This document shows, piece by piece, positions 9,340-46,751 of a stretch of 64,000 nucleotides of DNA. The first letter of the stretch is position 1; the number at the start of each line of letters is the position of its first letter. The stretch spans positions 15,352,001 through 15,416,000 of the forward strand of contig NC_080557.1 in NCBI RefSeq assembly GCF_030253575.1, written 5' to 3'. A model generated the notes under the pieces. The model worked only from the letters and a program-made list of their open reading frames with translations, was not told where the DNA came from and did no database searches. The stretch comes from Rhododendron vialii (lineage: Eukaryota; Streptophyta; Magnoliopsida; Ericales; Ericaceae). The position numbers and the translations under genes were made by a program.

Positions 9340-10621
9340 TTCCTTTGTATTTAATGTTTCTTGAGCCCAGATCAATCCTCTTATCATTCGAACTATAAAT
9401 TTCAAAATTCCATCATGTTATAAGTTTATTTGAATAAGTAAGTAAAACTAGACTACACCATCATTTTAGTGATAACAATGATTGGAGCAATTCATCTTGT
9501 AGATCTCCTCAAGAATATTGATCATGGCAAAAAAAACATGTCTAACAGGATATCGATAGATATGTTTTTCATGTCCATTCATCAGGAGGAAAAAAGAAAA
9601 ATCTGACACACTAGATTTTCTACTCGTTATCTCAAGGTAAATAGATCGATTCAAAATCATATGTATTGATATCCAATCAACTTGAATTATATTGTGGTTA
9701 TGATCAGTATTGTGCTCCCATAATAGGGCCCTTGAGGGCATCCTAAAGCTGTTAGTCCCTTGAGAAGATAACAAAAAAACGCGAAATACTTAACCATGTT
9801 AAATTTATTGTTCAAACATGCACTCCTGGAAATCAACTACAGTATAATGCCTCATATAGACTACTGGTCCAATAATTTGTTGGAGCCTATAATCATGGCT
9901 CAAAATGGATTATTTAAAATTAGTGGTACTACCTTGCATAGTTTGCCATAACCAAAATATTACTTTTGTAGACATTAAACGTGCAACGAAATATTATGAG
10001 ACACCATACTGTTTCATGAAGATGACTCCTAATTCAGTTGGTAAAATAAGTACTAATAACTGCCCTTTTTTAAAGGAATTGAATTTGATTTTTACACTTC
10101 CTATGAATTCATGCATATTATTTTTTTAGTTTTTTAGTAAATGAATTTACAAAATAGTCCCGGCATGCATACACTTTTTATAAATTTTAGGAATTATTTC
10201 GTAAATTTACCTGCTAAAAGATGAAGAAAAAAGAGTGTTTGCATCAATTTGAAGAATGTAGATATCAATTTCCTTTCCTAAAATAATATAGAATATTTCA
10301 CGCATCTTTTTTCTTTTTTTTTTTGAACGGCGAAATCTTTCACGCGTCTTTTTCCTAGTGACTACAAAGACGCAAGGTTCCAGGTCCACCACTGGATTGT
10401 GTATGCACATCACATCGCTTTGATACTAATTATGGCAATGCCAAGGACAAAGAAAGGAGTAAATTATTCAATAGTTCTGGACTATATATCATGTAGCATG
10501 TTCATGTGATACTCTCAACCAATCACGTATAGGGAAATTTCATGGGTGGCACATAATCAACCTCTTTTGTTGAGCGGTTTGGAGACAAGGGTTGACTCAC
10601 TTAGCATGGGTAGTGATAATT
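9340..10621 (+). repeat. Segmental duplicate of the COMT 3' flank (copy 1)
   Basis: This stretch is collinear with 29975-31250. Both carry ccagatcaatcctct, then a shared series including aagtttatttgaataagtaa and aatcaactacagtataatgc, and both end near ttgactcacttag. Copy 2 sits just downstream of the COMT pseudogene. Copy 1 has no COMT beside it and runs directly towards ORS-A. A foldback-like stretch (about 10120-10215 and 30830-30925) is present in both. Short frames in it are not conserved between copies because small indels shift them, so I call it non-coding. Confidence 0.8.
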
Positions 10622-11025
10622 TAGGAAAAATTTCTTTTATATCCCTTCGACTTTGACCAAAAATTCATTTTGGTCATTCACCTTTCAATTTCGGCATAAA
10701 AATACTTCGACTTTTCAATATTTTTCAATGATGATTCTATCAACGGAATAAGAAAAAATGATGATTCTATCCCTTAAAGATCGCCCACACTGACCCCTTC
10801 ATCTATACAAAAATGTCTATGATAACCCCTTCATCTTGACACTCTTTATAAAAGAACGGTGCTGATTGTTTAACGGTTATAATTGAGGGGGTCTGTATGG
10901 TTGATTTTTAACTATTATGGTGTCTCCGTAGGAAAAAAAGTGGTAGTTGAGGGGGGTCTCCATGAACTTTAATCTATAAGTATCTCGTTGATGCCACCCG
11001 TGAAAATAAGTGCTTTTAAAATATA

Positions 11026-11250
11026 CTCCCTCCGTCCTAAATTCTTAGTCCTCTCAAGAAATTGGTTATATCTTTTAATTTATAAAGTTTTTTTTATATC
11101 ACATATGAATCTTGTTTGATAAATCTCACTTAATTTTATTAAACAAAGCTTTCGAAATCACAAAAAAAAAAAAAAACATTACTGATTGTGACATAAATAA
11201 CTGAGTCACACAAAAAGTGAAATATGACCAAGAATTCAGGATAGAGGAAG
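11026..11250. mobile_element. Stowaway-like MITE, shared by both ORS copies
   Basis: A TA target flanks ctccctccgtcc at the left, and a degenerate complementary end (gatagaggaag followed by ta) closes it at 11250. The orthologous element is at 42784-43002. It lies about 0.4 kb upstream of the ORS-A start codon and predates the duplication. Confidence 0.75.
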
Positions 11251-11378
11251 TAAGTATTTTTAGAAATATCCTGGGTCCGCCGTTGTTTACGCATGTATGT
11301 GAAATACGTTGTATATGAGTCATGAGACTTGTGTGTCAAACAACCCCGTGAAATCACACGTTAAATCTAAAATAACTA

Positions 11379-11501
11379 GAAAAATGATATTCGCATTCCA
11401 AAAATTGATGCAGGCACTCTAAAATCAATGTAATTCCAAAGCCATTTTCTTTTGTTTTTAAAGTGCCTGCATCAATTTTTGGAGTGTCAATATCATTTCC
11501 C
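11379..11501. mobile_element. Foldback MITE in the ORS-A promoter
   Basis: The element is almost a palindrome. The left arm (about 11381-11425, containing ccaaaaattgatgcaggcac) pairs with the right arm (about 11457-11500, containing gtgcctgcatcaatttttgg). The flanks carry an 8-bp TSD, aataacta (11371-11378 and 11502-11509). ORS-B has the empty site with one aataacta near 43128, so the insertion followed duplication. It sits about 50 bp upstream of the TATA box and could have altered ORS-A expression. Confidence 0.9.
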
Positions 11502-11549
11502 AATAACTAATGCCATTACGAAGGTGAACAATCTGCACTTGGGTTTATG

Positions 11550-11557
11550 TATATAAA
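11550..11557 (+). promoter_or_regulatory. TATA box of ORS-A
   Basis: The tatataaa in gtatataaagagagc lies about 90 bp upstream of the ATG. It is conserved with the ORS-B TATA box at 43175, which supports this as the ancestral core promoter. Confidence 0.7.
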
Positions 11558-12586
11558 GAGAGCTAGGCTTTGAGAAAATGTAACTCCATCGCCACCATCT
11601 CCACTTCTTTGTTGTGATCAGTTAATAAGTGGAGAGTAGGGTAAAAATGGCTTTGGTGAACCACAGAGAGAATGTGAAGGGACGAGCTCAGATTCTGGCG
11701 ATTGGCACAGCAAATCCGAAGAATTGCTTCCGTCAAGCTGACTATCCGGATTATTACTTCCGCATTACCAAAAGCGACCACTTGATCGACTTAAAAGCTA
11801 AGTTCAAGCGCATGTGTAAGTATATACTTTCGCTGTCCCGATTTAACAGTCCCTCGTTATTTTTTTTGTGTTGTTGATTATTTGAAATTTCTCGTTAAAC
11901 TTTCCAGAAAGGCATGCGTCAATTGCATGTCCTGAATTCGGAGTGGAAAACTGAAAAATTGGATCGAGTGCTTGAATTTGTCTGATTGAACTGTTTTGTT
12001 TCCCGAACCTCTCATAAAACTATTTTGAAATTACTCAACACCTTGAAATTATTTGCGTGGGATTCCGGAGTGGGCCCCACACACTGCACTATCTGTGCAC
12101 GACACAAATTTAAAAGTCGCTTTAAGCCTTCAAATTCTCAGGGCCGGACCTGCTACGAGCTCATCAATCTCCTTGGCCTCAAGCCTTCCGTGAAGAGGTT
12201 CATGTTGTACCACTTGGGTTGCTACGGCGGCGGCACCGTCCTCCGCCTCGCCAAGGATCTGGCCGAGAACAACCCCGGGTCACGCGTCCTCGTCGTCTGC
12301 TGCGAAATCATGTCCAGCGCTTTCCACGGGCCGCCTTCTTTGCAGCACGCCCATTTGGATATTCTCACGGGGCACGCGATATTTGGTGACCGCGCTGGAG
12401 CTGTCATCGTCGGCTGCGTGGATCCTTCTGGTGGTACTAATGGGATCGTTGAATGCGGCGTCAGACGTTACGAGCAACCTCTGTTCGAGATCCATTCTGC
12501 TTATCAAACAGTACTACCTGATTCCGAGGACGCAGTCGGAGGACTTCTGCGTGAGGCTGGACTTATTTATTACTTGTCCAAGAGGC

Positions 12587-13514
12587 CAAGAATGGGATCG
12601 GGTGGTTTAATGGCGGCGGCCGTCACGACAAGAATTTTCGAAAACGTAATTATTATATGTGGAAAAAAAAATTTATCCCCAACTTACATAGTTTCGCCAT
12701 TGCTAGATTTTTTTTCTTATTTTTTCTTATATATTAGTCACAAATCTTCTTCTTCTTTTTTTCAAGAAAGAAGACCCAAAAAAGTATTCTAAAACTAAAT
12801 TTAATGGGCCAAAATGAAATAATATAAATGATGATGTGTAATTAAGAAAAAAAAACTCCCTACTAATTCTAACCCTAAAATAACTTAACCTAAAAAATTA
12901 AGGAAACTTAATTATAATGTCATTTCTCAAATTTGTAATGCCTCTCCCAAAAAGAAGTGCGGTTATCAATTTGAAAAATCCATATAGAAATCTGTGGAGT
13001 GATATTATAAATTTTAGGAGTGGCATTATCTTTGTGCTTATTGATGCTCTGGATAATCAATGAAGAAAGCATGATAATGTGCATATAAATTGAATTGGGT
13101 CTCTAGACCTGTCCTCTCTAATGCCATTTGGCTTTATTTTGGGGCATGGTTTCGCACCAAAATACATATGGGGGGGAGGGGGGGTTTACTTTTTAAGTGG
13201 TATTCTGATATTAACCACTTTGTATATATTACCAAAAGTCAGGTCTGTCTCCAATCCTCCCCCACTTATACCCCAATGATTGGGGACGACATGGGTTCTA
13301 TTGTTGTTATTGAAGTGGCATTATCGATACTCAAAATTAAAATTAGTGTTTTTTCATACTCCATGTGCAAATGAAAAACATCATTTACTATAGTTTTTAT
13401 TACGTTATTTTAATTTTTTTCTGGAGCCGATAACTATTAATATTGTAGTGCATCTTTTTATTTTTTTAGTATACATTTCGCCACTGCTAGGGTAAAATCC
13501 TGGTTCCGTCCTTG
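12587..13514. mobile_element. hAT-like non-autonomous insertion in ORS-A exon 2
   Basis: ORS-B reads caagaggc then tgtct without interruption. In ORS-A, caagaggc (12579-12586) is followed by 928 bp and then taagaagc (13515-13522), an 8-bp TSD with two transitions. The ends, caagaatgg and ccgtccttg, are weakly inverted. Inside, 13196-13320 is a SINE-like module ending in TTG repeats that recurs at 56280-56395. There is no transposase. The decayed TSD suggests this is one of the older hits on the pseudogene. Confidence 0.8.
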
Positions 13515-13594
13515 TAAGAAGCTGTCTAATGTTGTTTCGAGCAACATCGATGAGTGCTGCTTGGTTGAAGCACTTGGTGCTGCTATCAATAATA

Positions 13595-13809
13595 CTCCCT
13601 CCGTCCCTAAATAAGTGTCCGGCGCGCAAAACTAGGCTTTATAAAATATGCATATTTTTTATTAAAAAATTTAATTTTTTTTCACAATCTAATAGAACTC
13701 ATTGCTATTTATTGATTTGTGAAAAAAAATTAATTTTTTTACCGAAACAAATGCATTTTTTTGAAGGCCTAGTTTTGCGCGCTGGACACTTATTTAGGGA
13801 CGGAGGGAG
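13595..13809. mobile_element. Stowaway MITE in ORS-A coding sequence
   Basis: TA TSDs (13593-13594 and 13810-13811) flank a 215-bp element. Its inverted repeats of about 43 bp begin ctccctccgtccctaaataa, with one mismatch between arms. The nearly perfect arms indicate a recent insertion. It falls in the Asn-rich loop coding region and is absent from ORS-B. Confidence 0.95.
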
Positions 13810-14990
13810 TAACAAAAACGGCGATAAGTACGAAGATTAATTGGAACTCGTTGTTTTGGATAGTTCATCCTGCCGGGAGGCCGATTCTGGACAAAATCGA
13901 CGCGAAACTGGGACTGAACAAGGAAAAGCTGAGGGCGAGCAGGCATGTGCTGAGGGATTACGGAAACATGTGGAGTTTAAGCGTGCTGTTTGTTTTGGAT
14001 GAGATGAGGAAAGGGTCGATTGCGCAACGAAAGACTACTACCGGTGAGGGATTCGAGTGGGGCATTCTCCTCGGGTTTGGACCCGGTGTCACTGTCGAGA
14101 CCGTTGTGTTGCGTAGCGTCCCTATGACCAAACTTAAATAGATATGCGCTCGCTCTCGTTAAATGATGTCTCTTTCTCGAAGATAAGAAGTCGATTCCTA
14201 TGCTGGCCGGTACCGGTATCAAAGTTTGGCACTTTTAAGCTCATCTTCAGATCGACGTGAATATGTCTAAATAAACCTGCGTTCATCAAATAGCATGCCC
14301 CAATACTGGTGGGGACTTGTCGTTGTGTTTTCCAAATTTGATTTGTAAACAATCGTGCATGAATATGGTGTAGCACTTTATTATTATTATTATTTATGAT
14401 TCAGAGCTTTATTTATTATTCAGAGCTTAACAAAATTCTGTTCATGACTAAAAACTGTTGGAGAAAAGCTTATTCAAAAATGAGAGACTTAGCCAAAAAT
14501 CCTTCATATTTATGTTTTTTGAGTTCAAGAACAAGCACGTTTTTGCAATCAAATATAAGGACAAATGTGCTCTATGAAAGTGCCTAAAATCCTATGGACT
14601 ATGGTACCCTATGTATGAAAGTGCCTAAAATCTTTGGGTACTCTATGAAAGTGTCTAAATCACTAAAACCTTGTAATAAGAAAATGCGCTCTAAAACTTT
14701 ATGAAAGTGCCTAAATATGTTTTGGCTTTATGATTAAAAAACTCAAAAAAATTGAAGGACCTCCACTAAAAATTACTTTATTAGCGTCCTTCTAAATGAA
14801 AACTATTTTACTGTGCTAATTATGACTAATTTTTCCTTCAAAAGTTCAATTTGGGGGTTGGGTTAGGTTAAAATTTTCTGTGGCTGTGATTGAGTGTGAC
14901 TTTGTATATTTGTGGGCTTTTGATGTGTGAGAGAGAGAGAGAGAGAGAAACGGGTAACCTGCCACCTCCAGTGTCAATTAGATTAATGAA

Positions 14991-15214
14991 TTGTTTGGAT
15001 GGTGTTTTCAATTTTTAAGTTTGATTTTTGGGTAATAAGTGGAGAAAGAAATTAAGTTAATAATTAGAGATAGTAGTAATGTGTGGAGAGAGATAAAATG
15101 AAAAATGAAAATAATGATTGGAGAGAGGAGAGAGAAATGAGAGTAATAATTGAAAATAGGAATAATGATTGTTTTTTGAGTTGAATTTTTTTTTTCAAAA
15201 TCCAATCCAAACAA
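14991..15214. mobile_element. MITE candidate in ORS-A 3' flank
   Basis: Inverted ends ttgtttggat (14991) and atccaaacaa (15214) bound purine-rich, non-coding DNA. ORS-B lacks it at the matching place near 46385, so it inserted after duplication or was lost from B. No TSD could be fixed. Confidence 0.5.
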
Positions 15215-15491
15215 GACATAAGAGTGTATAAAATTTGACTCAAATTTGAGAGAAAAATGGGTAAAAGCTGGAGAAGCTCTAAGAGAGAAATATTGAGATG
15301 TGCGTGTTCGTATTTTTATTTTCCAGAAAATCAATACAATAGAGATGTGAGTTTGGCTGTGCGAATTTCTCTATTTTTCCTATCATAAACAAAGTAATTG
15401 AGAGCTTTGTTTGCACCATTTTTCATCTTTCTTCTCCTTCATGTTCACTCGGCTCGTACTGTTGCGAAAGCATGGTTTCTTAAGCACATGT

Positions 15492-15668
15492 CTTAATAAA
15501 TAGATATGCGTGCTAATCTCGTTAAATGATGTCTTTTTCTCGAAGATAAGAAGTCGATTCCTATGCCGGCCAGTACCGGTATCAAAGTTTTGCACTTTAA
15601 GCTCTTCTTCAGATCAAACTTGAATATGTCTAAATAAACTTGCTTTCGCAAATAGCATGCCCCAATAA
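15492..15668 (+). repeat. Third ORS copy: 3'-end remnant
   Basis: Directly after the end of the ORS-A segment, a stretch repeats the ORS stop-codon region and 3' UTR: taaatagatatgcg, then cgaagataagaagtcgattc, then gtctaaataaac and tagcatgcccc. It matches 14135-14300 and 45610-45775. No coding sequence accompanies it. This is what unequal crossing-over within a tandem ORS array would leave, so at least three copies probably existed. Confidence 0.8.
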
Positions 15669-16765: not shown

Positions 16766-18327
16766 CTAGATGATTAAAATTGTTCATTGAATCATTGAAT
16801 GCATCCATCACGAATTAAAAAAATAATAATAAAATTTGTTGATTTGAACACTCACCAATCCAAACGCGCGCGTTTATCATTAGAAAAAAATGAATCGTGG
16901 ACAATGCATTGAACATATTTTATGTTGATATCAGATCACGACCATAATTCTATATATGCGTGAATGATTAAAGTGTCTACACATGATTAAAGTAATACAG
17001 ATGTGCTCTTTTCTTTTTCTTTTTTGTCAAAAATGATAAAATTGTATTGATAACCGTCTAGCGACACTTACAAAACGGAGATCATTACAAAGAATTTGGA
17101 CAAAGTCAAACTAATCATCTAACAAATACAACATAAGTAAATCACAAGGTAATCGATGTCTTTCATCATAACCCAGACATGGCCTGACGTAATAGTGACA
17201 TTTTTAAACTGCCTAACATCTAATTAGGAGTCTCAAACAAAAAAAAAGTACAAAGTTAAGGACAAACAATACCAAATGCCCAGACGATCAGATGCACTCC
17301 ACCCAAGTATAAACGTACCAATGAACTCTCAAGAATTATAGATCTGCCAAGCTACCACGGGTTGTCTCGCCAAAGACATCGTGTAGGGATAGTATGTTGA
17401 AGCACATATATCGTTGTGAATCAACCTCGATTGAGAGAATCCGATCTGCAGACAAAATTCGTTCAAATATGAAACTAATAACTCTCATTGAAAGAGAGAC
17501 AAAACTCTCACAAATCAGACGACAAGTCATAGATTTGGAGAGACGGAAGGAAAAATAAAAATAAAGAAAGAAAGGGAAAGAAAGGGAGTCAGTAGTGCCA
17601 TGGTCTCCCCCTTCCGCCGCCGCACACGGATATAGAACCCACGGGGGGAGGGGGAGGGAAAGGGAGAAGATCGAGGAGTTGTGGTGGCTAGGGTTGAGAG
17701 AGAGATACGGTTTGGAATAATCTCAATGCAACGAACAGTTGGAATAGAGATGCTCTACAAAATGAACGGTTCATATCATAGCAAAAAAAGACATTTAGTT
17801 GGGATGCTTTCAACACGTTGTGATGCCATTGTGCACTCATCCTTTTTAATCTCTCGGTTGATTAATAAAACCTTTTTCCGGTAAAAAAAAAAAAAACAGA
17901 GAGGCAAAAACTAACAGACACGACCATTTTTCTTTTTCTTTTTTTTAAAACTTGCGAAATCCGGTCTAAAAAATAGGAACAGTACCCATTAAACAAAACA
18001 AAGATGGATCGGACCTTTCCCTTAAATTAAAAGGAGGAGGGTGGCTACTGGCTAGCTAGGAAGGAATGGACGTATAAATTTGGCAATGCAGATCGATCTT
18101 TCCCTGTAAAGAAAAAGAGCAAATTGCACAGAAAACATGTTGTATATTTATTGTACAATAATATTTCAAAACACTTTTTGGGCCATATATTCTTGTTTGG
18201 GCTTTGGATAAATATATGTGTTCTTAAAATTAGTCCCAAGTGTAATTGAATTTTGTTTTTACTAAAACCCAGCAGAAATTGTTTTAGCCCAAAACTAGCC
18301 ATTGGGCATTTGCCCGTTAATGCAACC
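16766..18327. other. Intergenic sequence with LINE debris
   Basis: No gene is recognised. A plus-strand LINE tail lies at about 17776-17896 (tagttgggatgctttc ... gattaataaaacc followed by A14). The remainder is AT-rich, with a GC-richer patch near 17590-17690 of unknown origin. Confidence 0.45.
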
Positions 18328-18571
18328 AGGCCCTGTTCCAGAAACACATTTTCAAAAAATAAATATTTATTTTACATTTTCAAGCTCAAAAATAATATAA
18401 ATAAAAAATAATTTTTTGATTTTTTTTTGCACCGAATAAAAGATCTCGTCGACGTCTTTCAAACAAGATCCATATTGCATATTTTTAAATTTTATTAAGC
18501 CCATTATTTTAGAGCTTAAAATTACATTTTTAAAAAATAAGTATTTAAAACCCGTTTTGAAACGGGGCCTT
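18328..18571. mobile_element. MITE candidate upstream of COMT
   Basis: The ends aggccctgttcc (18328) and gaaacggggcct (18570) are inverted, similar to hAT-type MITEs with GGCCCCGTTT ends. The interior is AT-rich and no TSD is clear. It lies about 0.5 kb before the COMT start. Confidence 0.45.
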
Positions 18572-19129
18572 GTGCTAGCTGTTGAAAGCTAGCACTTGGA
18601 GACTTGGTCAAAGTAATAACTCTATATATACATATATGTCTTCATTCTCCACTACAGTTTTTTACTACTCCACATTCTCTCTCCGAAAAAGAAAAAAAAA
18701 AACAGATCACTCCCAATCAAAATTCTTTTCTTTCCTTTCAAAGATCTTGTGTTGTTTGTTCTAAAAAGAGGAACCATCAAAGAGGGGTGGGTTGTTCAAT
18801 CCTCTTCCAACTAGTGCGAGTAAGAAAGAGAAGGCTATATAATTAAATCCTGGGAGGTTGCGTGCCGCGAGCCACACACACTGAGTCATTGGCTCCGAGG
18901 GAGTGCGAATTAACCTTTAAGGACAACGTCATCGGCGTGCTCTATAGCTCAGTGAAATTGTTCTTTGATTTACTTTATTGGAAATTTTAATTTGTTAGAA
19001 ATTGTGCATTATACTATTAATTTTTCCAACAAAACAAACTGATCTATGGATAGCTATTACAGTTGGGATCATAATAATGCAAGTAGTGATGCTAATTATA
19101 AAGACGAAGAGGAGGAGAAGCAGTGTAGC

Positions 19130-19713
19130 CAGTGGCGGATTCAGGAATTTTATACAGATGGGTCACCTTTTGGATACAAGACCGGCCCTAAGATTTCACA
19201 GTGAAAGATGAACCTTAAATATGGGGCCGTCAAATATATTTTTTACAATAATTGTTAAGTTTTTTAATTAAGATCATGTAATGGGCCCAAAAAAAAAAGA
19301 GAAGAACAAACTTGCCAGAAATATCTAAAATAAAAAAACAAAAAGTCCACACTAGTACTTCTAAAATTGAATAAAATCTTTTTAATGATGTTTGAAGTTT
19401 AGTACTTAATGAATTGGTAAAATTGTAAATGAAAGTTGTAAGTTACAGTGAGAAAAAAAAATTGAAACATTAAATTTTAGTGAGAGAAATTATGCACAGG
19501 ACTTGGGAAAAAGAGAATACTTTTGGAGCATTAAAAACAAAGCAAAAGACCCCCCCAGCAAAAGTCGAACGTGGGATCTGCTTGAGAAGACACGGTGAAC
19601 TTACCACTACACCACAAAAATAACTTTTGGGAGAAATGAAAACATTTTTACTATTTATTAACATTTCAGCTAGGTCACGTGACCCAGCTGAGCCTACATT
19701 AAATCCGCCCCTG
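19130..19713. mobile_element. hAT non-autonomous element in COMT exon 1
   Basis: It is a 584-bp insert with ends cagtggcggatt and aatccgcccctg (inverted, one mismatch), flanked by a perfect 8-bp TSD, agtgtagc (19122-19129 and 19714-19721). Removing the insert and one TSD joins the reading frame from KQCS to HAMELAF. A minus-strand tRNA-like stretch (boxes around 19565-19612) lies inside. No transposase is present. Confidence 0.95.
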
Positions 19714-20361
19714 AGTGTAGCCATGCCATGGAACTGGCTTTCTCGTCGCTGTCGCCAATGGTGATGAAGGCAGCGGTGGAGCTACGGGTGCTGGATATAA
19801 TAGCGAAGGCAGGCCCCGGAACCCAGCTCTCCCCATCTCGGATTGCGTCTCAGCTTCCAGCTAATACCCTCGTTCGCAACCCCGATGCATCAGAAATGCT
19901 CGATCGGATGCTACGATTCCTGGCTAGCCACTCCATTCTCACTTGCACCGTTGTCGACCTCCCTTCTGACTCCCGTGCAGTACTAGTAGGGGATAGGAGG
20001 TCGTATGGGCTGGCTCCGGTGGCCAAGTACTTTGTTTCTAACCAGGACGGAGTCTCGTTAGCACCCCTGTTGTGCCTGGTCCAGGACAAGGTCTTCAACG
20101 ATAGCTGGTAATTAATTCATGTTCGTATTCTAATTATCATCCAATTTTTCTCGAGCAATACAATGGTGACCATATGTCTAAGTACAACATTTTGAATATC
20201 ATGTGAGGTGTCACCATTGCATTGATAGAATATGCTCCACCATATGACAAACAGGGCACATTCTACCAATCAAGCCTAACCTTGAGCAAAGGCCCACCAG
20301 GCGACCGCCTAGAACCTTGGCCAAATAATTTGACCCCCCAAATAATGGAATATATTAAATA

Positions 20362-35262: not shown

Positions 35263-35267
35263 ATGCC

Positions 35268-35978
35268 TGTTGGGAAAAACTATCCAAAACACTATGAATA
35301 TTTTTCCCTCTTTGTGCAAATAGAGAATAGGCTAAATTATCGCAACCACAATAACCAACAACAACAAGCAATTTAGGAGCCGAAAGTAAAATAAGCAACA
35401 ACAAGCAAACCACGAGACACCGGAATTTTTACGTGGTTCCCCCTAAATTAGAGGTACGTCCACGGGAGCGTAATCGCTACCAAACCTTCCACTAATGATA
35501 ATGGGGTAACAAGAGTTCTTCCTTAGCAAGCTATTAGAGGCATACAAACATCACCCTAAGGTGGATTTCAACAAAAACAACAAAGAGTACAAGTTTAGGT
35601 CTCACAAAGTGGATTTCCCAAACTCCTAGAACCCGAGAGAACCTTGCCAATCTGCTCCGATCAGTGCGTAGAGCTCGTCAAACTATGGAACATACTGAAA
35701 ACCCATCAAAATCGGAGCAGCAACAGTGGTCCGATCTTGGCTTGAACTAAGAAGCAAAACCCTCACTTTTCTCGGCCGCTCTCTGGAACTCTCTGTTACT
35801 CTCGAAACCAGCAGCAGTCAAATGAGACAAGTCTCCTGACTTACTTTTGTAATCCCATGGTGGAAATTACAAGTTCTCCCTTTATCATTCAAAGAATAAC
35901 AAGATAACCCCATAACATTTTGAACTTAATTAATAAGCCCCCTTGTGGACCCACCAACTAGGAAGGACCCACCCAACA
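35268..35978 (-). repeat. 3' LTR of the copia element
   Basis: It is a 711-bp LTR, nearly identical to 40057-40777. On the minus strand it follows the polypurine stretch gggaggggcagatt. Confidence 0.93.
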
Positions 35979-37640
35979 AATCTGCCCCTCCCGACTTAGG
36001 TGGGGGGGTTCAACCAACCCCGCTTGGTAACAACAAAAGACATGCTTCTCCTTGGGCAAAGATTTAGTCAACATATCGGAACCATTCTTGTCCGTATGGA
36101 TTTTCTCAACCTGCAACAATTTTTCATCCAACGCCTCACAAATCCAATGATAACGCACATCAATGTGTTTTAACCGTGAATGAAAAGTTGGGTTCTTGCT
36201 CAAATGAATAGCACTTTGATTGTCACAATTGAGAACATACCTTTCTTGTTCAAAGCCCAATTCTTGAAAAAGCTTTTTCACCCATAGCAAATCTTTGGAG
36301 CCCTCTGCTACTGCAATGTACTCGGCCTCAGTGGTAGATAATACAACACATTTCTGCAACTTGGACTGCCAAGATACGGCTCCCCCTGAATAAGTCAGCA
36401 AGTAGCCCGAAGTGGATTTTCTAGAGTCAATATCTCCCGCCATATCGGCATCCGTATAGCCTTTAAGCAAAGGCTTACCATTTCCAAAACATAAACACAT
36501 TTTGGAAGTACCGCGGAGATAACGCAAAATCCATTTCACTGCAGCCCAATGATCATTTCCCGGATTAGATAGAAATCGACTTACCACACCAACCGCATAG
36601 GCAATGTCGGGCCTAGTACATACCATTGCATACATCAACGAGCCAACCGCCGATGCATATGGAACATTCTTCATTTCAATTTTTTTCTTCTCACTTGCCG
36701 GACTTTGCTTGGAGCTAAGTTTGAAATGATTAGCAAGCGGAGTGTCAACCGGTTTAGCCTTACTCATGTTAAACCTTTCAAGCACCTTTTCAATGTACCT
36801 TTCTTGTGATAGCCAAAGCTTGTCATTCTTCCTATCACGGGTGATCTTCATGCCAAGAATTTGCTTTGCAGGACCCAAATCCTTCATAGCAAAGGATTTG
36901 CCAAGTTCATTTTTCAACCCCTCAATTTTTCCCGCATCGTGGCCAATGATCAACATATCGTCCACATAGAGCAATAAAATGATGAAGTCATCATCGGAGA
37001 ATTTCTTCATAAACACACAATGATCCGAAGAAGTCCTGTTATACCCATGTTCAACCATGAACGAATCAAACTTCTTGTACCATTGTCGTGGCGCTTGCTT
37101 TAGCCCATACAAGCTCTTCTTTAGTTTACAAACTAAATTCTCCTTGCCTTTGACTTTGAACCCCTCCGGTTGTTCCATGTAAATTTCTTCCTCCAAATCA
37201 CCATGAAGGCAAGCAGTCTTTACATCAAGCTGCTCAATCTCAAGATTCAAGCTAGCGGCCAACCCAAGAACAACTCGTATAGACGGCATCTTCACCACCG
37301 GTGAGAAAATTTCTTCAAAGTCAATGCCTTTTTTCTGGCCAAAACCCTTCACAACCAACCTTGCCTTGTACCGTGGCTGTGAGCTTTTCTCTTCAGTCTT
37401 CAAGCGATACACCCACTTGTTTTTAAGAGCTCTCTTACCGTTAGGTAATTTCACCAAGTCATAAGTGTGGTTCTCATGTAAGGATTTCAACTCTTCTTGC
37501 ATGGGTTTCATCCACTCCCCCATATGCTTGTGAATTAGAGCTTTTTCGTAGCACTCAGGTTCTCCACAATCTGTAAGCATCACATACTCATCAACAGGAT
37601 ACCTTTTTGAAGGTTGTCTTTCTCTAGTTGACCTTCTCAA
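35958..37640 (-). pseudogene. Copia pol: reverse transcriptase and RNase H
   Basis: This 560-residue frame has RVT_2 motifs (KARLVVKGFGQKKGIDF, LDVKTACLHGDLEEEIYM, YGLKQAPRQWY, catalytic YVDDM) followed by copia RNase H (TDADMAGD, STTEAEYIA, HIDVRYHWI, DMLTKSLP). The frame differs from that of the integrase (37793-38737), so a frameshift or stop lies between about 37640 and 37790, including taa near 37680. The RT part itself is intact and could in principle be made only by readthrough. Confidence 0.9.
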
Positions 37641-37792
37641 CTGTTCTTCTTCAGGTGGTTCGCAAAGAACTTGTTCTTATTGCACTTCTTGTTTTGTTTC
37701 CTCAGCTGCAGGAGTATCTTCAACATCATCATCATTTTGTACATCTCCCCCGTAATCATCATGCACCATGGGTGGAGGAATCGGATCAAGAT

Positions 37793-38737
37793 TCATTGGG
37801 TACTCATGTGATGGTGTTGGTTCTCATTTTTGTCCAAATCTTCAATGGTTTGATCCTCAAAGAAGACGACATTATTGCTTCTCACAAGTTTTCTGTCAAC
37901 TGGATCCCACAGTCTGTAATCGAACTCTTCATCACCATATCCCAGAAAAATACATTGCTTTGTCTTGCCATCAAGCTTTGACCTTTCATCTTTCGAAACA
38001 TGCACAAATGCCCTGCACCCAAACACCCTCAAATGCCCATAGGAAACTTCCTTTCGTGACCAAAACCTTTCCGGCACATCACCATTCAGTGGAGCTGAAG
38101 GAGAAAGATTGATTAGAGCAACTGCTGTCTTCATTGCCTCACCCCAAAAGGATTTAGGCAGCTTTGCATGTGAGAGCATACATCTCACTCTTTCCACAAT
38201 TGTTCTATTCATTCTTTCTGCCACGCCATTTTGTCGAGGTGTCTTGGGAACGGTTCTTTCATGCTTGATGCCATTTTCCATGCAATATCGGTGAAACGGG
38301 CCTTTGTATTCACCCCCATTATCATTTCGGATACATTTCAAAGTCCTTCCGGTTTCCCTTTCAGCATTCACCTGAAAAAGTTTAAATGCTTCCAACACAG
38401 CATCTTTAGTTTTCAAAGCATAAGCCCAAACTTTTCTAGAATGATCATCAATGAAAGTAACAAAGTAACGTGCACCACTATGTGTTCTAACTTTCATTGG
38501 ACTGCAAACATCAGAGTGTACCAAATCTAGAACATTAGGCTTTCTAGATGCAAGAGTTCTATTGAATGCAACTCTATGTTGTTTACCGGCTAAGCAATGA
38601 ACACAATGCTTTAAACATGTATCTTTCACCTCCGGAAGGAGTGCTTTCCGGGCTAGAATTTGCATTCCTTTCTCGCTCATGTGACCGAGCCGCTTGTGCC
38701 ATAGCTCGGTGGAGGCTTCATCTTCAATTGCATTCAC
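37793..38737 (-). pseudogene. Copia pol: integrase
   Basis: The pre-integrase zinc finger (WHKRLGHMS ... CVHCLAGK) is followed by the DDE core (VHSDVC, FIDDHSRKVW, NDNGGEY, TPRQNGVAERMNRT), then a copia C-terminal region (GYGDEEFDYRLWDP). It lies one frame away from both gag-protease and RT, so it is separated by frameshifts. Confidence 0.9.
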
Positions 38738-38748
38738 CTCCCCTTTGC

Positions 38749-40012
38749 TTAGCTTAGATTAGATTGCATCAAATAAATAGTAGAACTCTTCTTTCCTCTA
38801 GCAACAACCAAAGAACCCTTGGAAAGCTTCCATTTTCCATCACCAAATTGATTCTTGTACCCCTCATCATCAAGCTTGCCGGCGGAGATCAAATTGAGCC
38901 GAATATCGGGAACATGTCGAACATCCTTGAGCACAAGTTTACAACCCGTGTTGGCCTCTAAGCAAACATCTCCCATCCCCACAATCTTGGACACACCTTA
39001 ATTACCCATCCGGACATGGCCAAAGTCTCCATGTGTATAAGATGCGAAAAAGTCCATTTGCGAAGTAACATGGAAGGAAGCACCGGAGTCAATCACCCAA
39101 CTCAAGTCTTGCCCCGTGAGCCTAACAAAACCATCATTGCAAACAATGATAACTTCTCCATCAGAGGCAACTGCGGCTGTATCTTTTGTACCACTACTTT
39201 CACCACCTTTCCCTTTCTTTAGCTCCTTTTGAAGTATTCGACACTCCTTTCTCATATGCCCCATTTTATGACAATGGAAGCATTCGATTTCACTCCTTGG
39301 CTTAGATGTTCCTTTTGACTTGCTTCTTGATTTGTCTTTGGACTTGTTACGGTCACCATGAGAGTTTCTAGTTCTGCTCCTGCCCCTATTCTGAACAATA
39401 AGAGCCTCAGTGTCAACCGAAGTACCTTGCTCTTTTCTTCTTGCCTCTTCATTGAACATGCCATCTTTCACCATGTCCATGGTTACCATTCCACTTGGAG
39501 CCGAATTGCTGATTGTCACAACCAGCGTTTCCCAACTATCAGGCAAAGAGCTCAACAACAACAGTGCTTGCAACTCCTCATCTAGCACTAGTTTCATCGT
39601 AGTCAACTGGTTTATCAACCATTGGAAGTCACTCATGTGCTCCGCAACACTACGGCCATCTTAATTTGTACTTCAAATTAACAAGCCTTCGAATCAAAGA
39701 AGCTTTGTTTTGTGTTGTTTTCCTCTCATACATAGCCTCAAGTTTCGTCCACAACTCATACGCATTGGTTTGAGCCACATGATGAAACACGCTTTGATCA
39801 ACCCAAGTACGAATTAAGGCAATGGCTTTTCTATTCATTATCTTCCAATCCTCATCACTTGTACCCTGCGGTTTCTTTGTATCACCATTGATCGGCAAAT
39901 ACAAGTCCTTAGTGTAAAGGACATCCTCCATTCGTGGTTTCCATATCGAGTAATTAGCGGAAGTCAATTTAATCATAGCCCCCGAATTTTCCTCCATTCT
40001 AAATTTACACAA
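38749..40012 (-). pseudogene. Copia gag and protease
   Basis: The gag N-terminus (39650-40012) carries SANYSIWKPRMEDVLY. After a frame change it continues at 38998-39636 with LLSSLPDSWETLV, a basic region, the zinc knuckle CFHCHKMGHMRKEC and the protease active site WVIDSGASFHVT. A stop near 38996 separates the protease C-terminal part (38749-38994; VGMGDVCLE, LKDVRHVPDIRLNLIS). Gag packages the element RNA and the protease would process the polyprotein. At least one frameshift and one stop make this inactive. Confidence 0.9.
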
Positions 40013-40040
40013 GATTCAGACGAGCACACTCCCAAACCAG

Positions 40041-40054
40041 AAGCTTTGATACCA
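40041..40054 (-). other. Copia primer-binding site
   Basis: The minus strand reads tggtatcaaagctt, two bases after the 5' LTR. This is complementary to initiator tRNA-Met, as in TNT1-like elements. Confidence 0.85.
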
Positions 40055-40056
40055 CT

Positions 40057-40777
40057 TGTTGAGAAAAACTACCCAAAACACTATGAATATTTTTCCCTCC
40101 TTGTGCAAATAGAGAATAGGCTAAATTATCGCAACTAGAATAACCAACAACAACAAGCAATCTAGGAGCCGAAAGTAAAATAAGCAAGAATAATCAAACC
40201 ACGAGACACTGGAATTTTTACGTGGTTCCCCCTAAATTAGAGGTACGTCCACGGGAGTATAATCGCTACCAAATCTTCCACTAATGATAATGGGGTAACA
40301 AGAGTTCTTCCTTAGCAAGCTACTAGAGGCATACAAACATCACCCTAAGGTGGATTTCAACAAAAACAACAAAGAGTACAAGTTTAGGTCTCACCAAGTG
40401 GATTTCCCAAACTCCTAGAACCCGAGAGAACCTTGCCAATCTGCTGCGATCAGTGCGTAGAGCTCGTCAAACTATGGAACATACTGAAAACCCATCAAAA
40501 TCGGAGCAGCAACAGTGGTCCGATCTTGGCTTGAACTAAGAAGCAAAACCCTCACTTTTCTTGGCAGCTCTCTGGAACTCTCTGGAACTCTCTGTTACTC
40601 TCGAAACCAGCATCAGTCAAATGAGACAAGTCTCCTAACTTACTTTTGTAATCCCACGGTGGAAATTACAAGTTCTCCCTTTGTCATTCAAAGAATAACA
40701 AGATAACCCCATAACATTTTGGACTTAATTAATAAGCCCCCTTGTGGACCCGCCAACTAGGAGGGACCCACCCAACA
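40057..40777 (-). repeat. 5' LTR of the copia element
   Basis: It is a 721-bp LTR. It differs from the 3' LTR by scattered substitutions and a small duplicated ctctggaact unit near 40571. It would hold the promoter on the minus strand. Confidence 0.93.
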
Positions 40778-41179
40778 ATGCCTTTCTACCATCAATGACA
40801 TGTGTTACGTACACCACCCATGAATTACAAGTTTGAATTCTAAAATATTTAATGCGGCCAGGAGCAGACTTCCCATGGGTTATGGGGATCACGTGCCCCC
40901 ACTCTATCACCCTTTTTTTTTTAACTCAACTCTAGTTCAATTTAAGACTGAATGCAGTTCGTACATATTTAGATCACTTCTCGATGATCCAAGCCGTTCA
41001 TATTTCAGCGATTGTCAAATAATTCATCCACTGTGACACTCCGCTTTCCGGTGGCCGGCGGTACTGCAGGAAGCAGGCTCCATCCGGACGGGAGGGGGCA
41101 AGTTATGGTTTATAAGGAAAGATCTCTTCTACTTGTACAAGGCCTTTTAAAACCGTGAGGACGGGCCAAAGCGCATAGA

Positions 41180-41255
41180 AACTTCACAGTTAATCGTGCT
41201 CATCCTGGGGTAATCCAGGGATGGGTGACCTACTGGGAAGTCTATAGGCTTTGGG
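41180..41255 (+). ncRNA. 5S-rRNA-like sequence in left Cassandra LTR
   Basis: Runs from acttcacagttaatcgtgct to the gatgggtgacctactgggaag block, matching the 5S A-box, intermediate element and C-box region with a few changes. In Cassandra these boxes can recruit Pol III. It is not a 5S gene. Confidence 0.8.
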
Positions 41256-41569
41256 CGTCTAAAGCGGACAATATTGTACAAAGATGGAGCAGGTCGTTAC
41301 AAATGGTATCAGAGCCCCGCCCTGGGCAAAGTGGTGAGTAGGATGCGCTCTGCTACCACGGACCCCAGGGGAGGTTGCTGGACTTGTGCAACGAGGACGT
41401 TACATCCCTAAGGGGGGTAGATTGTGACACCCCGCTTTCGGTGGCCGACGGTACTGCAGGAAGCAGGCTCCGTCCGGACAGGAGGGGGCAAGTCATGGTT
41501 TATAAAGAAAGATCTCTCCTACTTGTACTAGGCCTTTTAAAGCCGTGAGGACGAGCCAAAGCGCATAGG

Positions 41570-41645
41570 AACTTCACAGTTAAGCGTGCTCATCCTGGGG
41601 TAGTCCAGGGATGGGTGACCTCCTGGGAAGTCTATGGGCTTTGAG
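41570..41645 (+). ncRNA. 5S-rRNA-like sequence in right Cassandra LTR
   Basis: Here the boxes are closer to true 5S rRNA (cagttaagcgtgctc and gatgggtgacctcctgggaa) than in the left LTR, where two positions have changed. Confidence 0.8.
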
Positions 41646-42125
41646 CGTCTAAAGCGGACAATATTGTACAAAGATGGAGCGGGTCGTTACATCCACACAA
41701 AAATTTCAGTTGATCAGATACCTGTAACTACTTTATAAGAATTTTTTTTCAAAAAGTGGTCAGACTATTTTTTTAGAATAGTAGAATATAAGTATGGTAA
41801 AAGTACAAGGAGACCTCCTCAACTATCAATATTTTTTCATGGAGACCCCATAATATTTAAAATTTCCATATAGACCCCCTCAACTGTATGAAATAAAAAA
41901 TTGGCTAACTATATTAACGGAATAAGAAAAAATAATGATTCTATCCCTTAAAAATCGCCCACACTGACCCCCTCATATATACAAAAATGTCTATGCTAAC
42001 CCCTTCATCTTGACACTCTTTTTAACAGAACAGTGCTAATTGGTTAACAATTATAATTGAGGGGGTCTGTATGGTCGATTTTAACTATTATGGTGTTTCC
42101 GTGAGAAAAAAGTGGTAGTTGAGGG

Positions 42126-42704
42126 TAGGGGTGTTCAAGAAAATCACCCAAACAATAAAATCGGTTCAATCCAGACCGAATTATCCTATTTGGTCAGGTT
42201 CTGCGGTTCCACGGTTAGGTTATGGTTCCAAAAAATAAGAACCTTTAATTTTGGTTCGGTTACTGGTTTTCAATTAATGAACCGTGATTAGAACCTAACT
42301 GGACTATTTAAAACTAAGATAAATATAGATATACATATGTGTGTGTAATTAAATATGTATTTGAATTTGATAGGTTAATCTTTTCCTTGCTAAACTTAAT
42401 TTATTTAGAGATAAAATTTCATTTATTAGGAAAGCTTTTATTTTCTTCCTTCTTTTCCTATTCCAGCGGATTATCTTCTTATTTCTTTAATTTTATGAGT
42501 TCATATTTTGTGAATAAGTGTTTGGATGCTTATTGGATAGAACCAGAACCGAACCAAAACTAGACCGGTCTTGTAGTTTGGTTCTGGTTAGATTCCATGC
42601 ATATATTGGTTAGGTTCTGGTCCCCAATTTTCTAGTACAATTTGAAATGGTCCGGTTACTGATTTTCTAGATAACCGGACCAATTCGGACCACGTACACC
42701 CCTA
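42126..42704. mobile_element. hAT element upstream of ORS-B only
   Basis: It is 579 bp with ends taggggtgt and acacccccta-like sequence, flanked by a perfect 8-bp TSD, gttgaggg (42118-42125 and 42705-42712). The ORS-A segment has the empty site with one gttgaggg near 10946, which proves insertion after duplication. Subterminal ggttc/gaacc strings are frequent. It lies about 0.6 kb upstream of the ORS-B ATG. Confidence 0.93.
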
Positions 42705-42783
42705 GTTGAGGGGGTCTCCGTGAACTTTAATCTATAAGTATCTCGGTGATGCCACCCGTGAAAATAAGTGCTTTTACAATATA

Positions 42784-43002
42784 CTCCTTCCGTCCTAAAT
42801 TCTTGGTCCTCTCAAGAAATTGGTTATATCTTTTAATTTATAAAAAAAAATTTATATCAAATATAAATCATGTTTGATAGATCTCACTTAATTCTATTAA
42901 ACAAAGCTTTCGAAATCACAAAAAAACATTATTGATTGTGACATATAAATAACTGAGTGACACAAAAAGTGAAAAATGACCAAGAATTCGGGACAGAGGA
43001 AG
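42784..43002. mobile_element. Stowaway-like MITE (copy of 11026-11250)
   Basis: TA (42782-42783 and 43003-43004) flanks ctccttccgtcc and a degenerate ggacagaggaag end. It is in the same position as in ORS-A. Confidence 0.75.
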
Positions 43003-43174
43003 TAAGTATTTTTAGAAATATCCTGGGTCCGCCACTGTTTATGCCATGTACGTGAAAAACGTTGTATATGAGTCATGAGACCTCTGTGTCAGACAACCCC
43101 GTGAAATCACACGTTGAATCTAAAATAACTAATGCCATTACGAAGGTGAACAACAATCTGCCCTTGGGTTTATG

Positions 43175-43182
43175 TATATAAA
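43175..43182 (+). promoter_or_regulatory. TATA box of ORS-B
   Basis: The tatataaa lies about 90 bp before the ATG, in a block conserved with ORS-A. Confidence 0.75.
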
Positions 43183-43271
43183 GAGAGCTAGGCTTAGAGA
43201 ATATGTAACTCCATCGCCACCATCTCCACTTCTTTGTTGTGATCAGTTAATAAGTGGAGAGTAGGGTAAAA

Positions 43272-45618
43272 ATGGCTTTGGAGAACCACAAAGAGAATGT
43301 GAAGGGACGAGCTCAGATTCTGGCGATTGGCACAGCAAATCCGAAGAATTGCTTCCGTCAAGCTGACTATCCGGATTATTACTTCCGCATTACCAAAAGC
43401 GACCACTTGATCGACTTAAAAGCTAAGTTCAAGCGCATGTGTAAGTATATACTTCCTCTGTTCCGATTTAATAGTCCCTCGTTATTTTTTTTTTGTTGTT
43501 GATTATTTGAAATTTCTCGTTAAACTTTCGAGAAAGGCATGCGTCAATTGCATGTCCTGAATTCTGAGTGAAAAACTGAAAAATTGGATCGAGTACTTGA
43601 ATTTGTCTGATTGAACTGTTTTGTTTCAAGAACCTCTCATAAAACTATTTTGAAATTACTCAACGCCTTGAAATTATTTGCGTGGGATTCCAGAGTGGAC
43701 CCCACACACTGCACTATCTGTGCACGAACCATCGGTACCTGTAGAATTTTCAAAAAGTTATTTGGCAACAACTTTATTGCTACAACCCATGTTTGGCATA
43801 TTTCCGTTTTTCCTTCAGAACTTTGTTAACCGACCTTTTCTCTCTCGGGCTATGTTTGGCATATGATTGTCAAGGGTTTGGGTGTCAATATAATTGGGAT
43901 GCATTCTCCTTGTTGTGATGCCTTTTTGTCACAATTCTTTTAATCTTTGTAACAATTTCAAAGATTAATAAAATTATTTTTTGCCTTTCAAAAAAGAAAA
44001 ATTGCTACAACCAATGTAGGTACTTGGTAAATCTTTGTTAAGATAAATGATACTCATAAATAAATGTTTTTCTTTCAGTTCAGTTTTTCCTACATGCGTA
44101 ATTAGGATAGCACAAGAGAACTATACTTCGTCTCTGAAATTTTTTTAGTGATGTTTTCCTATATTTGACGTAAAAATTATAAGGTCCAATTTCATAGGTA
44201 TGCCTGGGACTTGCAATTAACACACTGGCCCTCTTACCCACCCAACCTAGCCCTTTTTTTTTAGGATTTGAGATGTGTATTTTGGCTCATCGGGTTGAAT
44301 TAGATTGAGTTTTTAAGCATTAGCTAACCGGATGGACTTGAAAATATCTCTTAAAAAATGCATGGAATCAAGCTTGGATAATCCAAACATCGAAACCGAC
44401 ACTGTCCAGGGCTCTGAGAGGGTACCAAGTGAAATTTTGAACTTTTAAGAAAAATAACCCATACTATAATTGCAAGTGCGGCGATTTACTTACTATACCT
44501 TATTGGTGCATGGTTCACGTACGCATGCAGGTGAAAAGTCAATGATTGAAAAAAGGTACATGCACGTGAACGAGGAGATACTGGAGCAAAATCCAAGCAT
44601 GAATCATGGTGGGGAGAAGATGGTCTCATCTCTTGATGTTCGTCTGGACATGGAAATAATGGAAATACCAAAACTTGGTGCCGAAGCAGCAACAAAGGCC
44701 ATGGATGAGTGGGGCCAGCCAAAATCAAGAATCACCCACCTCGTTTTTCATTCAACCTTGGGCACAGTAATGCCAGGGGTGGACTACGAGCTCATCAAAC
44801 TCCTTGGCCTCAATCCTTCTGTGAAGAGGTTCATGTTGTACCACTTGGGTTGCTACGGCGGCGGCACCGTCCTCCGCCTCGCCAAGGATCTGGCCGAGAA
44901 CAACCCCGGGTCGCGCGTCCTCGTTGTCTGCTGCGAAATCATGCCCAGCGCTTTCCACGGGCCGCCTTCTTTGCAGCACGCCCATTTGGATATTCTCACG
45001 GGGCACGCGATATTTGGTGACGGCGCTGGAGCTGTCATCGTCGGCTGCGTGGATCCTTCTGGTGGTACTAATGGGGTCGTTGAACGCGGCGTTAGACGTT
45101 ACGAGCAACCTCTGTTCGAGATCCATTCTGCTTATCAAACAGTACTACCTGATTCCGAGGACGCAGTCGGAGGACGTCTGCGTGAGGCTGGACTTATTTA
45201 TTACTTGTCCAAGAGGCTGTCTAATGTTGTTTCGAGCAACATCGATGAGTGCTGCTTGGTTGAAGCACTTGGTTCTGCTATTAATAACAACAACAACAAC
45301 AACGATATCTACGAGGATTGGAACTCGTTGTTTTGGATAGTTCATCCCGCCGGGAGGCCAATTCTGGACAAAATCGACGCGAAACTGGGACTGAACAAGG
45401 AAAAGCTGAGGGCGAGCAGGAATGTGCTGAGGGATTACGGAAACATGTGGAGTTCAAGCGTGCTGTTTGTTTTGGATGAGATGAGGAAAGGGTCGATCGC
45501 GCAACGAAAGACTACTACCGGCGAGGGATTCGAGTGGGGCGTTCTCCTCGGGTTTGGACCCGGTGTCACTGTCGAGACTGTTGTGTTGCGTAGCGTCCCT
45601 ACGACCAAACTTAAATAG
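43272..45618 (+). CDS. ORS: Type III polyketide synthase, orcinol-synthase-like (ORS-B)
   Basis: Exon 1 is 43272-43440 and exon 2 is 44531-45618, giving 418 residues. The intron (gtaagt ... gcag) splits the Cys codon of KRMCEKS, the conserved CHS-family position. The triad is present: Cys in HLGCYGGG, His in [10 protein letters not shown], Asn in YGNMW; the FGPGVT loop is intact. By alignment to chalcone synthase, Thr194 and Thr197 read Met and Ala (EIMPSAFHG), Ser133 reads Leu and Ser338 reads Trp, so this is not a chalcone synthase. I recall this sequence type from Rhododendron orcinol synthase, which condenses acetyl-CoA with malonyl-CoA to orcinol or orsellinic acid; the symbol is unverified. 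It is longer than the usual 390 residues, partly from a seven-Asn run encoded by AAC repeats. It is the only intact ORS copy in the window. Confidence 0.92.
43789..44000 (+). mobile_element. LINE tail inserted in the ORS-B intron
   Basis: A 212-bp 5'-truncated LINE end (ggcatatgattgtcaaggg ... gattaataaaattat ... A-rich) is flanked by a perfect 12-bp TSD, attgctacaacc (43777-43788 and 44001-44012). Splice sites are untouched. It is related to the tails at 16100-16630 and 49190-49318. Confidence 0.92.
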
Positions 45619-46751
45619 ATATGCGTGCGCTCTCGTTAAATGATGTCTTTTTCTCGAAGAAAAGAAGTCGATTCCTATGCCGGCCGGTACCGGTATCAAA
45701 GTTTGGCACTTTAAGCTCATCTTCAGACGTGAATATGTCTAAATAAACCTGCGTTCGTCAAATAGCATGCCCCAGTACTGGTGGGGACTTGTCGTTGTAT
45801 TTTCCAAATTTGATTTGTAAACAATCGTGCATGAATATGGTGTAGCACTTTCTTATTATTATTTATGATTCAGAGCTTTATTTACAAAATTCTGTACATG
45901 ACAAAAACTGTTGGAGAAAAGCTAAATGTGCTCTATGAAAGTACGTAAAATCCTAGGGTATCTTATGTATGAAAGTGCCTAAAATCCTAAAGTACTCTGT
46001 GAAAGTGTCTAAATCACTAAAAGACTATAATAAGAAAGTGCGTCCTAAAACCTTACGAAAATGCATAAATATATTTTGGCCTTATGACTAAATAACTCAA
46101 AAATTGAAGGACCTCCACTAAAAATTACTTTATTGGCGTCCTAAATAAAAACTATTTTACTATCCTTATGACTAATTTTCCCTTCAAAAGTTCAATTTGG
46201 GGGTTGGGTTAGGTTAGGTTAGGTTAAAATTTTCTGTGGCTGTGATTGAGTGTGACTATGTATGTTTGTGGGCTTTTGAGTTTTGATGTGTAGGAAAGAG
46301 AGAGAGATCTAGAGAGAGAGAGAGTGAGTGAGCAAAGAGAGGAGGAGAGAAACCGGAAACCCGCCACCTCCAATGTCAATGAGATGAGTGTAAAGAGATA
46401 AATATTGAGACGTGCGTGTCTGTATTTTTTTTTCAGAAAATCAATGCAATGGAGATGTGAGTTTGGCTGTGCGAATCTCTCTATTTTTCCTATCAGAAAC
46501 AAAGTAATTGACAGCTTTGTTTGCACAATTTTTCATCTTTCTTCTCCTTCATGTTCACTCGGCTCACACTGTTGCGAAAGCATGGTTTCTTATGGGCCCA
46601 AATCGCATCGTTGGAGGCCAGGATTGAGGTGTCTATATCATCGTCGTCGTTTCCCTGAGATCCGCCCTTAGATTTTACAAATCAGTTTTGGGCACATCTT
46701 CAAGATGGTCTGCTCGTCTCGCTAGACGCCCCAAACGGTGTAATTTAAGCA

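Follow-up and report, generated by a model that had tools for sequence, protein, structure and literature searches.

The synthesis of orcinol by an orcinol synthase (ORS) is already known in Rhododendron, and several species of the genus emit orcinol dimethyl ether (3,5-dimethoxytoluene) as a principal component of their floral scent. In R. delavayi, R. agastum, R. annae, and R. irroratum, 3,5-dimethoxytoluene is listed as a major volatile (PMC6767277), and it is also present in R. fortunei (PMC9814181); Rhododendron ORS has been named as the source of its orcinol precursor and the rose OOMTs as the methylating enzymes (PMC11469922). In the excerpts returned by a literature search on Rhododendron orcinol methylation and dimethoxytoluene, no Rhododendron orcinol methyltransferase was found. 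The enzymes closest to those considered below come from R. dauricum: RdORS, for which the accessible Table 1 of PMC5037138 gives Leu133, Met194, Ser196, Gly197, Val269, Tyr280, and Trp357 as residues that differ from chalcone synthase (CHS), and RdCMT, a chalcone di-C-methyltransferase (PDB 9kus) described in the available portions of PMC13109631 and PMC13256973. Here, we describe a locus of Rhododendron vialii at which a COMT-like methyltransferase is linked to, and has been duplicated with, the sole intact ORS-type gene that a genome scan found; this methyltransferase is a direct and cheap candidate for the methylating enzyme. The locus spans a stretch of 64,000 nucleotides (C1:15352001-15416000), called the window, and extends upstream of it (negative positions). 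For the analysis, 200 kb around the window was added, giving a region of 264 kb in all, and the genome searched comprised 532,647,506 bases on 13 contigs.

The locus consists of two colinear units (approx. -23031 to 15482 and 16792 to 46592), each of which carries, in the same order, a COMT-like methyltransferase gene, a flank, and an ORS-type polyketide synthase (PKS) gene. When the interval from -26000 to 16772 was compared with that from 16773 to 56000, colinearity extended from the COMT promoter (-23031/16792) to the 3' side of ORS (15482/46592), with order and strand in agreement across both units. The units lie head to tail, separated by 1.3 kb in which a 171-base relic of an ORS 3' end sits. 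In unit 1, the methyltransferase gene COMT-A is intact and ORS-A is broken; in unit 2, ORS-B is intact and COMT-B is broken. The two intact genes are 43.8 kb apart and have the same orientation. The initial annotation had read the matching order of the flank pair and the ORS pair as the duplication of a single COMT-flank-ORS unit. Self-BLAST confirms that order, and duplication of one unit is strongly supported by the colinearity, by uniform non-coding divergence, and by an old repeat shared inside the flank. The same annotation described the module as now decaying, which needs correction, since the losses are reciprocal and both kinds of gene are still represented by an intact copy. As each gene had two copies, the survivors would be expected on different units half the time, and the reciprocity is thus unsurprising. 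We consider a history of unit duplication followed by reciprocal gene loss highly probable, and the locus offers a clear natural case of two genes copied together as a whole unit and then sorted out by reciprocal loss.

The two flank copies (9340-10622 and 29973-31251, both on the plus strand) differ by 117 substitutions at 1184 aligned sites, a Jukes-Cantor (JC) distance of 0.106, and are 77% identical by BLAST, which counts gaps as differences. Copy 2 begins 165 bp past the last coding base of COMT-B (29808), in keeping with its earlier description as a COMT 3' flank; in unit 1, approx. 9.9 kb lies between the COMT-A stop and the flank. The flank and ORS homologies of unit 1 are 115 bp apart and those of unit 2 are 10.66 kb apart, matching the 120 bp and 10.7 kb estimated at first. 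A genome search that scored 40 of its 105 first-look candidates, so that repeat counts are lower bounds, placed the whole 1.28-kb flank at two locations only among the 74 matches listed. Of the other 72, 71 fall inside flank positions 781-1015 and one at 1145-1248. Positions 781-1015 are a palindromic dispersed repeat that is spread over many contigs and is present in both copies; the sharing of this inner repeat points to common descent of the flanks rather than to two unrelated insertions. A dispersed-repeat origin is ruled out for the full length of the flank and holds for this one inner piece only. The repeat is MITE-like (MITE, miniature inverted-repeat transposable element) and lies at 30753-30987 in copy 2, with its counterpart within 9340-10622.

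Outside the ORS core, non-coding divergence between the units is homogeneous at approx. 9% (294 of 3306 sites in eight segments, chi-square p 0.56), which fits a single duplication of the whole unit. Counted as substitutions with gaps excluded, it amounts to approx. 0.08 upstream of COMT and approx. 0.11 in the COMT introns, with two short blocks at 0.03 and 0.065, while the outer ORS segments give 0.074-0.084 upstream and 0.102 and 0.068 downstream. The synonymous divergence (dS) of COMT-A and COMT-B is 0.117 +/- 0.024 (347 codons). In the ORS core, made up of the 5' leader, the intron, and the proximal 3' side, no more than 27 of 732 sites differ (3.7%; Fisher p 5e-7 against the rest); the core segments range from JC 0.012 to 0.051, and the ORS dS is 0.044. 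This similarity probably results from later gene conversion between the ORS genes, the alternative being constraint on the untranslated regions (UTRs) and intron. Several points count against such a reading of the two units. The core segments were picked after their values had been seen, and they include UTR and intron sequence that is possibly constrained. The homogeneity test omits the blocks of mixed exon and intron sequence (644 and 711 sites), the blocks at COMT exon 4 and at the start of exon 1, and a block of 50 sites with a single substitution. The flank distance depends on the method, being 0.106 in one comparison and 0.124 in another, and the ORS tree joins ORS-A to ORS-B weakly (88/78).

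The events at the locus would then be as follows. An ancestral unit composed of a COMT-like methyltransferase, a 1.3-kb flank, and an ORS-type type III PKS would have been duplicated in tandem within the Rhododendron lineage, and transposons would later have lengthened both units. Of the two genes, unit 1 would have retained the methyltransferase alone and unit 2 ORS-B alone; between the duplication and the breakage of ORS-A, gene conversion probably passed sequence between the two ORS gene bodies. COMT-B groups with the protein fragment P0080 (99/97), which fills 41% of the alignment columns, and the split between A and B thus seems older than that of the source plant of P0080 from R. vialii.

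The gap between flank and ORS in unit 2 had been attributed to later insertions of a hAT element, an ORF1-only long interspersed nuclear element (LINE), a copia element, and a Cassandra element. Of these, the copia element is borne out, as is an element resembling Cassandra. The copia element (35268-40778, minus strand) has Pfam matches to gag, integrase, and RVT_2, a target site duplication of ATGCC, and long terminal repeats (LTRs) that differ by JC 0.036. A Cassandra-like terminal-repeat retrotransposon in miniature (41032-41691) has the target site duplication TCCAC, LTRs at JC 0.066, and a 5S-like match (5S_rRNA, E 2e-4) whose 31.6 bits are under the Rfam gathering score of 38. Both LTR distances are lower than that of the flank (0.106), in agreement with insertion after the duplication; it must be said on the other side that the Cassandra-like LTRs (0.066 +/- 0.016) are younger than the flank by about two standard errors and no more. 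The hAT element and the ORF1-only LINE at 31252-35267 were not confirmed, and the sole open reading frame (ORF) scanned within this interval, 33547-33936, has no Pfam match.

COMT-A was located outside the window by a family scan and tblastn (-22565 to -559; C1:15329435-15351441). It comprises four exons with GT/AG borders and 378 codons with no internal stop, and two of its introns, of approx. 9.6 and 11.2 kb, contain retroelement-like ORFs as read by eye. The part of the stretch between the COMT-A stop and the flank that falls in the window (1-9339) contains a LINE-type reverse transcriptase (ORFs 1448-4435; RVT_1 and zf-RVT by Pfam), and this stretch has no other match within the 264-kb region at E 1e-5. 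COMT-B, on the plus strand, carries two insertions, an in-frame stop, and a truncated exon 3. Its upstream region (16792-19045), with which unit 2 begins, has patchy homology to -23031 to -22566 in three blocks (JC 0.08, 0.02 over 50 sites, and 0.08). Exon 1 (19046-20107, from tblastn and sequence) is split by a 584-bp MITE (19130-19713; borders counted by hand on the sequence) with the 8-bp target duplication AGTGTAGC, the length of which leads us to presume that the element is hAT-like. Exons 2 and 3 (21500-21971) contain the stop, in exon 2, and have lost the 3' part of exon 3. Exon 4, likewise traced by tblastn and sequence, is interrupted between its first part (22836-22968) and its last part with the stop codon (29689-29811) by a LINE with a poly-A end (22969-29688, plus strand; ORF 26637-29174 with RVT_1 and zf-RVT by Pfam), and at the LINE site 41 bp of the COMT-A sequence is absent. 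The dimerisation and methyltransferase domains (PF00891/PF08100) are matched by Pfam on COMT-B exons 1 and 2.

The ORS pair (10738-15482 and 41912-46592, plus strand) aligns as eight colinear blocks in self-BLAST. In ORS-A, the upstream region (10738-11646), whose outer part lies at JC 0.084 and 0.074 from unit 2, is followed by exon 1 (11647-11815; tblastn with P0121). At 12103-12152, a 50-bp filler stands in place of 1056 bp of unit 2 that include the first 253 bp of exon 2, and the remnants of exon 2 (12153-14138) are interrupted by two insertions. One of these, of 924 bp (12587-13510), emerges from the comparison of the units; the other, a palindromic 219-bp MITE (13593-13811) found by self-BLAST, we take to be Stowaway-like. 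The 3' side (14139-15482), delimited by the unit comparison, ends unit 1. The annotated R. vialii protein P0123, a '2-pyrone synthase-like' protein of 343 amino acids (aa), is a model stitched over this broken gene, as 342 of its 343 residues are read from 11647-14138 in four exact pieces. In ORS-B, an upstream region with a 577-bp insertion (41912-43271; insertion 42126-42702) precedes the intact exon 1 (43272-43440, GT donor) and the intact exon 2 (44531-45618, AG acceptor, open frame, Pfam match). The two exons encode 418 codons with no internal stop, and the 3' side (45619-46592), likewise defined by comparison with the other copy, ends unit 2. PKS matches outside the window have 40-63% identity, except for one at 75% over 28 residues. 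A second ORS had been considered at the C11 PKS, a similarly split family match, and was ruled out at 39-40% identity to R. molle ORS; we take the C11 gene to be an anther LAP-type PKS.

ORS-B possesses the Cys-His-Asn triad of type III PKSs (Cys164, His326, and Asn359 in the numbering of its R. molle ortholog, to which it is 96% identical over 418 columns and on which its residue positions were counted). A 17-row tree places it, together with two V. darrowii proteins and R. molle 01G0107300, in a starred clade of Ericaceae (98/97). As far as the accessible Table 1 of PMC5037138 goes, ORS-B agrees with RdORS at 13 of 14 positions, which upholds the name ORS given at first, and it shares six of the seven residues that differ from CHS. 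In particular, both proteins have the triad, the Trp that follows the catalytic Asn, and the ORS-specific residues at 133, 194, 196, 269, and 280, and their lengths are similar (412 aa in RdORS, 418 aa in ORS-B; PMC5037138). In contrast to RdORS, ORS-B shares its unit with a methyltransferase gene and was duplicated with it. Two observations argue against a direct transfer of function. Position 197 is Ala in ORS-B, as in R. molle, and Gly in RdORS. Moreover, PMC10243626 describes an assay of five ORS candidates from other species in which one of the five, RdelORS1, is credited with orcinol, as are RdauORS and CorcORS1; we equate these five with the genes in the S4 legend of that paper, three from Rhododendron and two from V. 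darrowii. Since orcinol is reported for a single one of the five, this activity cannot be assumed for ORS-B from its sequence.

Beside the Rhododendron enzymes, the two ORS-type proteins of V. darrowii, P0122 and P0125, are encoded on one chromosome, show Gly versus Ala at residue 197, and branch outside the A/B group of Rhododendron; they probably represent a separate Vaccinium duplication. Camellia sinensis P0173 is placed as sister to the Ericaceae ORS clade (100/99) on a long branch that makes the placement unsure, and this position suggests that ORS-type synthases are older than Ericaceae.

The class of the methyltransferase is harder to settle. COMT-A keeps the catalytic His269, Glu297, and Glu329, belongs to the plant methyltransferase family, and is 93.9% identical to an R. 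simsii protein. In a 37-row tree, COMT-A and COMT-B form a clade with R. simsii 01G0111200, P0080, and Vadar_033962 (99/97). At the columns of alfalfa COMT Asn131, His166, His183, Ile319, and Asn324, which presumably form its phenylpropanoid pocket, COMT-A has Ile, Pro, Gln, Gln, and His, respectively; with these five residues replaced, a function as lignin COMT is improbable. The nearest solved structure, and a point against reading COMT-A as an orcinol O-methyltransferase, is RdCMT (73.0% identity), so that COMT-A may instead methylate carbon or accept a flavonoid, and the term 'O-methyltransferase' is uncertain. The original COMT label is a loose one. RdCMT and COMT-A belong to the same Ericaceae COMT-like group (a 13-row clade, 97/93) and share the three catalytic residues; they differ in several pocket residues, and the R. 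simsii relative of RdCMT is numbered to chromosome 4, not 1.

We give somewhat less than an even chance to an alternative in which the substrates of the linked methyltransferase are flavonoids or other phenols, with C-methylation of chalcones in the manner of RdCMT as one example. The enzyme would then be metabolically unconnected with ORS, and the two genes would be neighbours by chance or as a remainder of the tandem expansion of the COMT family. Besides the affinity to RdCMT, this would be consistent with the match of COMT-A to RdCMT at 11 and to alfalfa COMT at 9 of 17 columns that we take to line the pocket. It would also agree with a C-type COMT-like gene on the minus strand at -105853 to -103009 (90-95% identical to R. 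molle 01G0106900 over four exon matches) and a COMT exon 4 fragment at -95042 to -94923; located 95-106 kb upstream of the window, these mark the area as a COMT array. However, RdCMT groups with the sister clade of C-type genes (93/83) and not with A/B, and chance proximity of COMT and ORS appears unlikely. Under uniform placement, 0.02 PKS clusters would be expected within 50 kb of a methyltransferase cluster, a figure that uses lower-bound counts and was computed after the pair had been seen, and the linkage recurs at the chromosome level in Vaccinium.

It had been anticipated that a relative would have an adjacent COMT-ORS pair. Such a pair exists in R. molle, where COMT 01G0106900 and ORS 01G0107300 are four gene numbers apart; that COMT is of the C type and not an A/B ortholog, which weakens the argument for an old pair. 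The A/B-type COMT of R. simsii (01G0111200) carries a chromosome 1 number. In V. darrowii, one contig of 40,412,137 bases holds both of the listed ORS-type proteins and two (P0003 and P0114) of the four listed COMT-family proteins (P0003, P0005, P0013, and P0114). This linkage, too, is limited as support, because it holds at the chromosome level only. P0003 lies outside the A/B split in the 37-row COMT tree.

With regard to function, ORS-B would condense acetyl-CoA with malonyl-CoA to orcinol or orsellinic-type tetraketides, and COMT-A would methylate such phenols, most simply at oxygen, to give, e.g., 3,5-dimethoxytoluene. COMT-A would then do the same job as rose OOMT1/2, converting orcinol into 3,5-dimethoxytoluene after ORS. 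The comparison is one of role, and the accessible part of PMC11469922 does not state a linkage to ORS for the rose genes. Judged from the predicted proteins, a methylated-orcinol function of the pair is plausible but tentative, and we give it less than an even chance. By extension, an old linked ORS-methyltransferase pair of Ericaceae may have been duplicated whole and then undergone reciprocal loss, its methyltransferase being the Rhododendron orcinol methyltransferase and its products providing a route to 3,5-dimethoxytoluene or C-methylated orcinol that is independent of rose scent; we regard this fuller proposal as possible, though doubtful in its entirety. Like plant biosynthetic gene clusters, in which non-homologous genes are linked, the locus has two different specialised-metabolism genes that are linked and were duplicated together; it differs from them in that only two enzyme types are recognised, with no further one among the 10 of 214 ORFs scanned outside the window.

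It is improbable that the whole locus is a dead relic in which intact reading frames persist without function. Transposons surround COMT-A and ORS-B, and the COMT-A introns are swollen with retroelement-like sequence, as a relic would lead one to expect; nevertheless, the frames and splice borders of both genes are intact while their partner copies have several disabling changes, and the identity of ORS-B to its R. molle counterpart and of COMT-A to that of R. simsii remains high. Least likely of all are two separate duplications, in which COMT and its flank would have been doubled in tandem first and ORS would have been copied later, independently, to a place beside the flank. Although the ORS core is far more alike than the flank or the COMT introns, the outer upstream and downstream ORS sequences are about as old as the flank (Fisher p 0.085, flank against outer non-coding ORS sequence), and the agreement of order and strand throughout the units already disfavours this account.

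In the surroundings, no metabolic enzyme that would indicate a larger metabolic cluster was found among the 10 of 214 ORFs (>=90 aa, outside the window) that were scanned against Pfam; these matched FLZ, CW, reverse-transcriptase zinc fingers, PMEI, AFT, and FAR1, with one kinase match below the cut-off and three ORFs without a match. Downstream of unit 2, the segment 47323-48863 has long open frames on both strands, of 138 and 333 aa on the plus strand and 124 aa on the minus strand; neither plus-strand frame matches Pfam. At the border of the two units, the 171-bp relic (15497-15667, plus strand), identified by self-BLAST and by the region comparison, is a third copy of the ORS 3' end at a JC distance of approx. 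0.06 from ORS-B, and is possibly the trace of a former array or of the border of the duplication.

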